Assembly: GCA_017462755.1 (NCBI GenBank)
Contig: JAFTQM010000039.1
Span: 1 to 45,030 of the forward strand
DNA length: 45,030 nucleotides
DNA from: Lachnospiraceae bacterium
GTDB lineage: Bacteria; Bacillota; Clostridia; Lachnospirales; Lachnospiraceae
Reading direction: 5' to 3'
Under the pieces are notes generated by a model, which worked only from the letters and a program-made list of their open reading frames with translations, was not told the DNA's origin and ran no database searches. A program made the translations under genes and the position numbers. Below are positions 16,942 to 20,334 of the stretch, piece after piece; within the stretch, counting starts at the first letter, position 1, and every line of letters starts with the position of its first letter.

Positions 16942-17895
16942 TTATTGTTCTGTTGTATATTTTGCCAGTGCAGCCCATATCATTGCATTCCGCTTCCAGA
17001 TTGCTTCGTATTCACTGATTGCCATTGGCGCAGCACCTACTCCGATTTCGATGGTTGCCGACGGAATCTGCTTTACCATAACACACCAGTCTCCGTAGCC
17101 TGCCGCATCCTGCTGATCCGTTGCTGCATATTTTATCTCATTGTCATTGATCGAATGAATCACATCAACCATCTGCTTACAGGCCGTCCGCAATTCTCCT
17201 GTCTGACCGTAATCCCAATAAATCACACTGCCTGTCGCATGATAGCTGATGGTCAAAGCCGGCTGTATCTTCTCCGTCAATCTTACCAACGCCGTAGCCT
17301 CTGCCTCAGAGGCAGCTGCCGTTCCTTTATATTTTTGCGCTCCCGGTGCCGCAGCCCCTTGATACGCCTCAAAGCCATAATCAAAATTGCGGTTCAAATC
17401 CACACCGCGCGCATTTGCCTTCCAGTACTTCAGATAATTTTTGAAAGAATAGCTTGTCGCTCCGGATGTCTTATCTCTATCATACCATTCCTCTATCTGT
17501 TGCCGGATGGATGCACTCGTAATTCCTTCCAGCCCAAACTGACTGATGCTGATTCCGTCCGGATTTACCATCGGTACCAAATGGACACCAACCTGTTCAA
17601 ACAGCTCTGCAAAGGTGGTTCCGCCATAGCTGCCCTCCTCGAGATATTCCAGATAAAATTCCAGTTGGTTCATAACCAGCATACAGGTCATATATTCTCT
17701 TGCATGAATTCCTGCATGAATCAGTATCTGCGTCTTAGCCTCCGGATTGCCGAACACGGCTTCCTGTACCTCTCTGCCGTCTGCTGTGGTCGCAAGCACA
17801 TTAAGCTGCAGCTTTTCCGGATACTTTCTTTTTAACTCCTGTAAATCTTCACACAGCTCATCGTAGGAGTAAATCTGCTCACTTGTATCTACCAC
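16942..17895 (-). CDS. M14 family zinc carboxypeptidase domain (fused to SH3 lipoprotein by possible frameshift)
   Basis: The open frame (317 codons) begins with GTG 17895 and is an M14 metallocarboxypeptidase, likely cleaving peptides or cell-wall cross-links (gamma-D-Glu-diamino acid endopeptidase type). Zinc ligands: HAREYM (H and E near residue 65-68) and SYHATG further on; catalytic Glu in ATIEIG near the C-terminus; NPDGI and DLNRNFD are the conserved substrate motifs. It has no signal peptide and no ribosome binding site before GTG. A -1 slip on an A9 run just upstream (17902-17910) would join it to the SH3 lipoprotein in a 512-residue protein, which would supply the export signal. The same strand has the lipoprotein stop at 17889, overlapping this gene. 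Confidence 0.85.
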   Translation of the reverse strand: MVDTSEQIYSYDELCEDLQELKRKYPEKLQLNVLATTADGREVQEAVFGNPEAKTQILIHAGIHAREYMTCMLVMNQLEFYLEYLEEGSYGGTTFAELFEQVGVHLVPMVNPDGISISQFGLEGITSASIRQQIEEWYDRDKTSGATSYSFKNYLKYWKANARGVDLNRNFDYGFEAYQGAAAPGAQKYKGTAAASEAEATALVRLTEKIQPALTISYHATGSVIYWDYGQTGELRTACKQMVDVIHSINDNEIKYAATDQQDAAGYGDWCVMVKQIPSATIEIGVGAAPMAISEYEAIWKRNAMIWAALAKYTTEQ

Positions 17896-18479
17896 ACTAA
17901 GTTTTTTTTTGCGTCCGCAAGCAGCTCCTGCTGATTGTACGGCTTTTCTGTCGTCAGCTTTTTCGTGGTCAGAAATTCTGCATAACCATATACCACCTGA
18001 CCTTCATATAACAGCTTGTCCCAACCGTTGCTGCCTTTGGCAAGGCGCGTAAATGAATCCCCGTATACTGCCTTTCCTACCACCTCGGTATCGGTCGATG
18101 GTCCGGAACGAAGATTCATAACCGAAGCTGCTACATATACCGTATCGTTGGTTTCCTCAAAGCCGCCATCCTTCGCATCTGAAATACCGGTGCTTCCGGA
18201 GCCTTCCGTACCACCCGTATTGCCGATTTCCCCGGTATTATCTGCTTCGCCCGTCTGTCCGCCTTCTACGGAACCACTCTGACCGGACTGCTCACCATCC
18301 TCACCGGTTGTATCCCCAACAGGACTCTGAGGTATATTCACTTCTGTTTCTACCTTTACCTGATGCTCTATCTGCTTGGCAGTTTCCATCGACACCTGCT
18401 CTTCCTGCTTTTCTTCTTTTCCGCAGGCTGTCAGCAGAAGCACCAAAACCAGCATCCATATTCCTCTTTTTTTTCTCAT
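17889..18479 (-). CDS. SH3-domain lipoprotein, N-terminal partner of the M14 peptidase
   Basis: The 196-residue product starts MRKKRGIWMLVLVLLLTACGK with a lipobox TAC, so it should be lipid-anchored outside the cell. Then comes a low-complexity linker (about 30-110) rich in Gly, Ser and Thr, and one bacterial SH3 domain (about 115-175: VYVAASVMNLRSGPSTDTEVV ... WDKLLYEG). The final codons read K-K-N-L-V-W-stop. Directly before them lies an A9 run whose last seven bases form A AAA AAC in the correct frame for a -1 slip, and a -1 slip leads straight into the M14 peptidase. The start ATG is preceded by AAGGGAAGG. It is 22 bp after the coiled-coil gene. Confidence 0.85.
   Translation of the reverse strand: MRKKRGIWMLVLVLLLTACGKEEKQEEQVSMETAKQIEHQVKVETEVNIPQSPVGDTTGEDGEQSGQSGSVEGGQTGEADNTGEIGNTGGTEGSGSTGISDAKDGGFEETNDTVYVAASVMNLRSGPSTDTEVVGKAVYGDSFTRLAKGSNGWDKLLYEGQVVYGYAEFLTTKKLTTEKPYNQQELLADAKKNLVW
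17901..17910 (-). promoter_or_regulatory. Candidate -1 frameshift/transcriptional slippage site (A9C)
   Basis: Minus strand GCAAAAAAAAACTT: codons GCA AAA AAA AAC in the lipoprotein frame contain the classic heptamer A AAA AAC. Shifting back one base gives GCA AAA AAA AAA CTT AGT GTG GTA, which enters the M14 frame. An AGGAG sits 14 bases upstream of the run (17925-17929), like the stimulatory site in dnaX, though further away. Indel mutation or phase variation at A9 are alternatives. Confidence 0.6.
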
Positions 18480-18501: not shown

Positions 18502-18927
18502 CTATTCGGCTTCCAGTCCGTCAAAATACTCCTGCACCTCTGCTACCGCATCCGCAGACAATGCTATTTCCTCTTCCATTCCATGAATCACTTCACTGCT
18601 ATATTCGGCTTTTTCCAGAACATCATTTACCAGCTGCATCAGCTGTGCCAGCATGCTTTCGTTCTGTTCCAGCATCTGCCCCAAAAGCTCCACCTGCTCA
18701 GAACAAACACCCGCATCATTGATGCACTGCAGAGCAGAATGAACCTCAAACGCGAACATATCATACCCGTTTCCCATTTCTTCAATCTGTTCTGCCGCCT
18801 GCCGCACACCTCCCAGAAGCTTATCCTGTTCGTTGATTGCATCAAACGCACGCTGCTCTAACTTCTCCTGTGCCTGCAGCAGCTTCTCTACAATATGTCC
18901 ATAGCCTTTACTGTCCCCCTGCACCAT
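18502..18927 (-). CDS. Hypothetical coiled-coil protein
   Basis: A 141-residue protein, mostly heptad-like: GHIVEKLLQAQEKLEQRAFDAINEQDKLLGG, then EQVELLGQMLEQNESMLAQLMQLVNDVLEKAE and ALSADAVAEVQEYFDGLEAE. There is no signal peptide or membrane helix. I do not recognise a family. The helical repeats resemble cytoplasmic parts of chemoreceptors in composition only. The M2 ATG (18927) has GGAGG with 4-nt spacing and is preferred over the overlapping ATG at 18930. It lies 24 bp after radA and 22 bp before the SH3 lipoprotein, so one transcript is likely. Confidence 0.7.
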   Translation of the reverse strand: MVQGDSKGYGHIVEKLLQAQEKLEQRAFDAINEQDKLLGGVRQAAEQIEEMGNGYDMFAFEVHSALQCINDAGVCSEQVELLGQMLEQNESMLAQLMQLVNDVLEKAEYSSEVIHGMEEEIALSADAVAEVQEYFDGLEAE

Positions 18928-18954
18928 CATGCCTCCTTCCGTACTTCTCAGCCT

Positions 18955-20334
18955 TTAATCGAGTAGTGAAAATAATTCCTTAACATTACGCACTCCAATC
19001 AGCTTTATTCCTTCCTGTTTGCTTTGGAGCTTTTTCATATGCTCTAAGTTCGCTGCCGGCAAAATACAATTCTCATAGCCAAGCTTCTTCGCCTCTGCTA
19101 CCCGCTGCTCTGCCTGACTTACGCCTCGTACCTCTCCGGTCAAGCCTACCTCACCAAAAACAATCGTTCCGGATGCAACCGGCCGATTCTTGTAGCTGGA
19201 CAAAAGCGCCATTACAATCGCCAAATCCAGTGCCGGTTCATTGATTCGCATACCTCCGGCCACATTCAGATACGCATCACAAAACGACAGCTGAATCCCC
19301 AAACGCTTTTCTAACACTGCCATCAACAGATTTACACGATTATAATCCGTACCTGCCGCAGTCCGCCGCGGCATATTAAAATTGGTCTGGCACACCAGCG
19401 CCTGTACCTCCACCAGTAAAATTCTGCTGCCCTCTAACATCGCCGTAACTACCGAACCTGCCTCGCCCTCCGGCCTGCCCTGCAACATATACTCCGATGG
19501 ATTATGTATTTCCTCCAAGCCGGTCCCGCGCATTTCAAAAACACCGATTTCGTTCGTTGAACCGAAACGGTTTTTTACCGCACGCAAAATCCGGTAAGAG
19601 GCATTGGAATCGCCTTCAAAATAAAGCACCGTATCCACCATGTGTTCCAGCACTCTCGGTCCGGCGACTACACCCTCCTTGGTCACATGACCTACGATAA
19701 ATATGGTAACACCCAGTCCCTTTGCCAAACGCATCAGACTGGAGGTCGTTTCCCTAACCTGACTGACACTGCCCGGAGAAGCTGCGATATCCTCCCGAAA
19801 CATAGTCTGTATCGAATCGATAACCACCAGCTGTGGCTTCTTTTCTTCGATTACCTTCTCAATGGCATCCAGACTGGTCTCGGACAAAAGCAGCAGATTG
19901 CCGCTCGCCTTTTCCAATCGGTCTGCACGCATCTTAATCTGATGCAGCGATTCCTCCCCCGAAATATATAGAATCTGTTCTCTTTCTGCCAGTCTGCTGC
20001 ACATCTGCAGCAAAAGCGTGGATTTGCCGATACCCGGATCTCCGCCAACCAATACCAGCGAGCCATTCACAATACCACCGCCAAGCACCCGGTCGAGCTC
20101 CGTAAGTCCGGAGCTTAACCGCGCCTCTGTCGCAGAGCTGACCTCATCCAACCGCTGCGGCTCTGTTCTTTTTCCGGACAGCACACCGGCGGTATATACC
20201 GGCGCCGCTGTCTTTTTTACCGGCTCCTCTACAAAGGTGTTCCACTCCTTGCAGCCCGGACACTGTCCCATCCATTTCGTCGATTCCTGACCGCATTCCT
20301 TACAGAAAAAGACGGTTTTAGCTTTCCCTGCCAT
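18955..20334 (-). CDS. radA: DNA repair protein RadA (Sms)
   Basis: RadA is a RecA-like helicase that extends D-loops during homologous recombination and branch migration. The N-terminal zinc finger (CKECG ... CPGCKEW, residues 11-29) is followed by the RecA-like core with Walker A GGDPGIGKST, Walker B VVIDSIQ, and the RadA-specific KNRFG motif in VKNRFGSTNEIG. The C-terminal part is a Lon protease-like domain without catalytic function (GGMRINEPALDLAIVMALLSS). Length 459 is typical. The start has GGAG 8 bases upstream. It is 15 bp from the preceding gene and in the common clpC-radA order. Confidence 0.96.
   Translation of the reverse strand: MAGKAKTVFFCKECGQESTKWMGQCPGCKEWNTFVEEPVKKTAAPVYTAGVLSGKRTEPQRLDEVSSATEARLSSGLTELDRVLGGGIVNGSLVLVGGDPGIGKSTLLLQMCSRLAEREQILYISGEESLHQIKMRADRLEKASGNLLLLSETSLDAIEKVIEEKKPQLVVIDSIQTMFREDIAASPGSVSQVRETTSSLMRLAKGLGVTIFIVGHVTKEGVVAGPRVLEHMVDTVLYFEGDSNASYRILRAVKNRFGSTNEIGVFEMRGTGLEEIHNPSEYMLQGRPEGEAGSVVTAMLEGSRILLVEVQALVCQTNFNMPRRTAAGTDYNRVNLLMAVLEKRLGIQLSFCDAYLNVAGGMRINEPALDLAIVMALLSSYKNRPVASGTIVFGEVGLTGEVRGVSQAEQRVAEAKKLGYENCILPAANLEHMKKLQSKQEGIKLIGVRNVKELFSLLD

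Follow-up and report, generated by a model that had tools for sequence, protein, structure and literature searches.

A conserved run of A residues between the SH3 and M14 peptidase frames of a Lachnospiraceae lipoprotein gene: a candidate site of polymerase slippage

Does a gene that is interrupted at a run of A residues encode a single truncated protein, or two products of different length? The question is raised by a locus on the minus strand of a 45,030 nt stretch of Lachnospiraceae bacterium DNA (contig JAFTQM010000039.1; here called the window), in which translations place the stop of an SH3 lipoprotein frame just past nine A residues and a C, with an M14 peptidase in the -1 frame across the same run. 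The features of the locus are as follows.

17889..18479, minus strand: zero-frame ORF for the SH3 lipoprotein, the short product, 196 aa (translation; PF08239 SH3_3, E 6.9e-08)
18423..18479, minus strand: signal peptide with the lipobox LTAC at residues 16-19 (translation; lipobox judged by eye)
17970..18122, minus strand: SH3_3 domain, residues 120-170, the whole domain lying before the run (Pfam)
17902..17910, minus strand: A9 run, followed by a C at 17901, candidate slippery site (sequence; A9 or A10 at the same place in genomes G001-G004)
17925..17929, minus strand: AGGAG, 14 nt upstream of the A9 run and not shared by the four other species (sequence; scan for Shine-Dalgarno-like sites)
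17889..17891, minus strand: TAG ending the short product, inside the M14 frame (sequence, translation)
16942..17910, minus strand: -1 frame from the run to a TAA (16942-16944), M14 peptidase part, 322 aa counted from KKK (translation)
17110..17847, minus strand: Peptidase_M14 domain PF00246 (Pfam, E 2.4e-33; PDB sequence matches to carboxypeptidases B, A and T)
17695..17706, minus strand: HARE, an HxxE zinc motif (alignment with carboxypeptidase B 7eqx)
18502..18930, minus strand: upstream neighbour of 142 aa without a family (Pfam, NCBIfam; similar-looking ORFs at the same place in G001-G004)
18955..20334, minus strand: radA, used as the marker of orthologous loci (TIGR00416 for the window copy; relatives by eye on translations)

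At the junction the zero frame reads GCA AAA AAA AAC TTA GTG TGG TAG, and the -1 frame across the run continues as KKKLSVVDT. An earlier note on this DNA had described an SH3 frame that ends after the A9C run and a -1 slip that leads into the M14 frame to give a lipoprotein of 512 residues; the window sequence and its translations bear out both the arrangement and the length (190 + 322 aa, with 196 aa for the short form). The stop, which the note put 11 bases after the run, does follow closely, its last base being 12 bases after the C. The slippery heptamer that it named, A AAA AAC, is in the right phase, and so equally is A AAA AAA, formed by the first seven A residues of the same run, which on our inference should re-pair better. 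The peptidase has both the Pfam domain and the HxxE zinc motif of the M14 family, to which we assign it, and the HARE residues presumably serve as zinc ligands. Among NCBIfam models the closest are MpaA for the peptidase and Ent proteins for the SH3 part, with scores well under the respective cut-offs, and neither Pfam nor NCBIfam has a model that matches the 142-aa neighbour lying between radA and the lipoprotein gene. A second A run, of eight residues (18467-18474), lies at the start of the lipoprotein gene, where it encodes part of Met-Arg-Lys-Lys-Arg; judged from translations, it is not common to the relatives.

The genus sample comprised six genomes, five of which gave the peptidase gene, with no match in G005 (68% complete). 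All five sequences come from drafts of 80 to 490 contigs and are related by descent. Every one carries an A run at the junction, A9 in the window and G001 and A10 in G002, G003 and G004; the window, G001, G002 and G004 have the gene split in the same way, each with the -1 offset, and in G003 the A10 run lies inside one open frame that joins both parts. The comparison of homologues proposed in the earlier note, a conserved A run with the same two frames, is thus positive in four of the five members that yielded the gene, the fifth being single-framed with the run kept. The stop of the SH3 frame begins 19, 10, 10 and 19 nt past the run start in the window, G001, G002 and G004 and is TAG, TGA, TGA and TAG, respectively; the bases after the run also differ, and the splits are therefore not copies of one error. 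All five genes encode an SH3_3 domain and place the conserved VD of the peptidase 18 nt past the run start, and each of the four split genes has A AAA AAA or A AAA AAC in the correct phase, an X XXY YYZ heptamer read in its zero frame. Transcriptional slippage is expected at runs of at least nine A or T where two ORFs meet, which is the arrangement seen here, and the conservation used in PMC1088944 (of ORF organisation and run in non-identical homologues) is seen here with four of the five genes split alike and the run in all five.

The M14 parts share 54-73% protein identity over the ten genus pairs, and synonymous divergence is high, with dS beyond calculation in eight pairs and 3.7 and 1.65 in the other two. 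At such divergence a run of nine identical bases has not been kept through lack of time. The fraction of Lys codons that are AAA near the loci is 0.29 in the window, 0.37 in G001, 0.44 in G002, 0.66 in G003 and 0.44 in G004 (29-66%), from which the chance of AAA AAA AAA is 0.024, 0.052, 0.087, 0.283 and 0.084, respectively; the product of the five is ~3e-6 if the genes are treated as independent and KKK as fixed. Although four of the five genus members use AAG more often than AAA for Lys, the run is unbroken by AAG in all of them. Runs of eight A number three in the window against 5.2 expected from shuffles, a difference that is not significant.

All of the sources are draft assemblies and homopolymers are error-prone, and the split could be attributed to a sequencing or assembly error in the run, or to plain decay of the gene. 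We consider either very improbable: the same split is found in four genomes with different flanking bases, and the A9+ loci examined showed no other split gene. There are 11 runs of at least nine A on both strands of the window's 2.73 Mb genome, and 8, 17, 73 and 38 in G001-G004. We fetched 41 such loci, all 11 from the window's genome and 30 of the 136 from G001-G004, a set to which the same-gene runs of G002-G004 do not belong. Only the window gene and its G001 orthologue show, on the A strand, a long ORF that ends and another that begins in a different frame. Homopolymer error is therefore unlikely, and assembly noise was rejected as the cause of the split on these 41 loci, which cover only part of the runs in the relatives. 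The G003 genome is unusual in its 73 runs (8 to 38 in G000, G001, G002 and G004); either such runs are less avoided there or the base make-up differs. Decay is countered by the M14 parts of G002 and G004, both from split genes, which differ with dN 0.196 and dS 1.65 over 186 codons; the dN/dS of ~0.12 argues that the part beyond the stop, as judged from these codons, is under purifying selection.

How the M14 part would be translated is a separate matter. The peptidase could be restarted after the SH3 stop as a second, cytoplasmic protein, and there is an ATG at the run end in G002 and G004, overlapping or near the SH3 stop; in G001 a second possible start, a GTG at +36 behind GGAGGA (-9.3 kcal), could restart translation. 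Against this, the start codon is not conserved, and none of the four split genes has an M14-frame ATG, GTG or TTG ahead of the run. The best Shine-Dalgarno-like match before the first possible M14 start is -0.1 kcal in the window, where the earlier note had likewise seen a GTG without a ribosome binding site, -2.6 kcal in both G002 and G004, and +0.8 kcal in G001, compared with -3.5 to -9.3 kcal at five window genes. For the M14 part, three of the four split species offer no credible independent start, and the orthologues outside the genus are fused, with an N-terminal lipoprotein-like signal. We give a separately restarted, cytoplasmic peptidase very little credence.

Relatives outside the genus were collected by a family-wide search, in which 68 of 397 genomes matched, those of the window and G003 included, with further loci from the genera of G246 (1 genome) and G166 (3 genomes) and from 395 relatives (31 matches at 1e-60). 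A scan of named genomes gave two loci, one from an uncultured Lachnospiraceae and one distant (24% identity). Of 56 non-genus M14 loci read, 55 were interpretable, among them three that are partial at one end (L095, L096 and L100); L025, whose match starts at query residue 75 and is out of register, was left out. The junction reading also leaves aside L039 (G402, partial), L007 (the second half of the G004 gene) and family-wide matches that were not fetched. Between -100 and +60 nt relative to the match start, none of the 55 loci contains an A run of seven or longer, the nearest being an A8 at -101 in L022. Ten of the non-genus loci have another open segment of at least 100 aa ending nearby, and no Pfam family was found in any of these at E 0.01. 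An order-wide search of 392 genomes gave 14 matches, all in the same family; the new genomes among them (G699, G712 and G715) lie outside the loci read.

As in the window, the gene in G246, G166, G193 and G049 adjoins radA or is one short ORF away, and clpC lies within the fetched stretch of the first three (both genes recognized by eye on translations); because of this neighbourhood we take the four loci as orthologues. All are single-framed and lack the run, as does the gene in G401. SH3_3 and M14 domains are both found by Pfam in G246, G166 and G193, and M14 alone in G049. The earlier note had regarded relatives with one uninterrupted frame and no run as evidence against programmed slippage; such relatives do exist in G246, G166, G401, G193 and G049, outside the genus and not within it, and they probably represent the ancestral state and are not a sign of a recent indel. 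G003, the only genus protein in the alignment that spans the linker, has extra residues relative to the out-group orthologues, with KKK just before the peptidase part. Given these extra residues and the lack of a run in the non-genus orthologues, the run was probably added in this genus.

In a tree of 13 M14 domains the five genus members form one group (100/98), and G003 is placed beside G001 (83/86, below the mark for strong support). The tree fits a split in the ancestor with a return to one frame in G003, and other orders are possible. The single frame of G003 among four split relatives could also reflect phase variation, in which the length of the run changes in the DNA, so that any one cell makes only the short or only the long protein; A9 and A10 runs are mutable, and PMC1088944 leaves the same question open for mapW of Staphylococcus aureus. 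In our sample of one genome per species, free switching should scatter the genes over the three phases, whereas the four split genes agree both in phase and in the length from run to domain. The agreement in phase is a weak argument, at least four of five being alike with a chance of ~0.14, and taking the evidence together we regard phase variation as improbable.

If the run acts at the level of expression, either the ribosome or RNA polymerase could slip on it. Programmed -1 ribosomal frameshifting at A AAA AAA or A AAA AAC would leave the mRNA unaltered, as in dnaX and insertion sequences, and the heptamer is correctly phased in all four split genes. Frameshifting in dnaX is helped by a Shine-Dalgarno-like site and a stem-loop, and we searched for equivalents of both. 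The AGGAG pointed out in the earlier note is present in the window, 14 nt before the run; a role as stimulator is not borne out, since the window alone has it and no Shine-Dalgarno-like site is shared upstream among the five genus members. In G002 a G-rich match (-9.2 kcal) lies 27 nt ahead of the run, and the matches in G001, G003 and G004 are weaker than -4.6 kcal. No downstream structure is shared by the five species (z -2.4 to +1.2 in folds without pseudoknots), with only G004, over 50 nt, below -2 (z -2.4). The possible aids are thus each confined to a single species, namely the AGGAG in the window, the upstream match in G002 and the downstream fold in G004. A Shine-Dalgarno-like stimulator is not an absolute requirement in the family of -1 programmed ribosomal frameshifts, and PMC4066793 describes an Escherichia coli insertion sequence cluster with a proven A_AAA_AAC site and no established stimulator. 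The efficient A_AAA_AAG motif that it also describes is used in none of the five genes, however, and the run exceeds the length that a ribosomal shift needs. Programmed ribosomal frameshifting seems to us rather unlikely, while being the most serious of the alternatives considered.

A stem-loop just before the run was considered as a common aid to polymerase slippage and is unsupported: no upstream structure is shared by the five species (z -2.5 to +1.5; over 40 nt, -2.3 in G003 and -1.7 in G004). We nonetheless prefer the polymerase to the ribosome by a clear degree, and both could act. The only element common to the relatives is the homopolymer itself, with no common Shine-Dalgarno-like site or structure beside it, and the run is longer than a heptamer requires, with no AAG interruption in any of the five genes. 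PMC1088944 takes an uninterrupted homopolymer as its mark of polymerase slippage.

The conserved run suggests that slippage is used to obtain a short and a long protein from one gene. We propose that an ancestral SH3-M14 lipoprotein gene gained nine or ten A residues in its linker, in or before the ancestor of the genus, and that the run now serves for recoding, most probably through slips of RNA polymerase. Transcripts with the templated run would give the short protein, with signal peptide, lipid anchor and SH3 domain followed by the stop, and a fraction of mRNAs slipped on the run would enter the M14 frame and give the long, anchored peptidase, the ratio between the two being governed by the slipperiness of the run. 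In G003, with its uninterrupted frame, the long protein would be the unslipped product and slippage would instead yield the short form. The split, its offset, the conserved run and the constraint on the M14 part are plain from the sequences; we infer that slippage happens, with the polymerase and not the ribosome as its agent, that both proteins are made, and that the cell wall is the target of the peptidase. As a whole, this explanation (an ancestral fused gene, a genus-wide run as recoding site, two products, and the polymerase as the most likely agent) is one that we hold to be reasonably probable from the sequence comparisons. The notion of two products from one gene, put forward in the earlier note, remains the best reading, without the AGGAG as its stimulator.

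The closest precedent is, by analogy, the pair tssM1 of Citrobacter rodentium and tssM3 of Yersinia pseudotuberculosis, chromosomal genes described in PMC4256274, in which poly-A near a stop codon gives two length variants by slippage. Slippage produces the long form in one homologue and the short form in the other, which has a parallel, on paper, in the four split species and G003. The tssM1 run has eleven A residues, and its slippage (~20-25%) was proved experimentally, with RT-PCR products analysed by mass spectrometry and with blots and reporters, whereas the A9 and A10 runs here are known from sequence; the window gene also encodes another protein in another phylum. For its own genes and the Shigella genes cited there, the same paper gives slippage of 15-55%. 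The S. aureus slippage candidate mapW is similarly a non-mobile Firmicute gene with two ORFs joined at nine A residues and with some uninterrupted relatives. In the survey that reported it (PMC1088944), seven cases had conserved ORF organisation and run, six being insertion sequences and one, mapW, non-mobile. The mapW comparison concerned strains of one species, and the present one five species with saturated synonymous sites in eight of the ten pairs. With dnaX, as presented in PMC5009743, the gene shares the making of two products at one slippery site, where the ribosome slips in one of Escherichia coli and Thermus thermophilus and the polymerase in the other; the long dnaX product is in the zero frame, whereas the zero frame here gives the short one in four of the five genes. 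The gene would belong to a known class of slippage genes and would stand out as an ordinary chromosomal gene whose site is conserved between species. In the open-licence literature we found no report of an M14 or SH3 gene with such a slippage site.

SH3_3 domains often bind the cell wall and M14 enzymes include wall peptidases, and an anchored wall peptidase with an enzyme-free SH3 partner is a natural guess. The Pfam Peptidase_M14 domain and the HARE motif are shared with the M14 carboxypeptidases A, B and T, from which the window peptidase differs in being joined to an SH3 domain and a lipid anchor. The more specific reading, in which an envelope enzyme is dosed against its enzyme-free SH3 anchor partner by RNA polymerase slippage at a run kept by selection throughout the genus, with the default product swapped in G003 and both products retained, we put at slightly short of an even chance. 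The window gene would provide a chromosomal case in gut Firmicutes, conserved across species, of an anchor and binding domain made with or without an enzyme; automatic annotation would probably label it a frameshifted pseudogene. Because the frames are naturally swapped in G003, the two-product idea can be tested directly. The peptidase parts of two of the non-genus orthologues have unusual sequences. G193 (L114, 2935-4407) and G049 (L115, 2792-4171) have CGAE and SGCE in place of HARE, with loss of the zinc-motif His; both have also lost the Glu before IG near the end, and G049 additionally lacks the later His. The orthologue in these two genera seems to encode an inactive peptidase domain.
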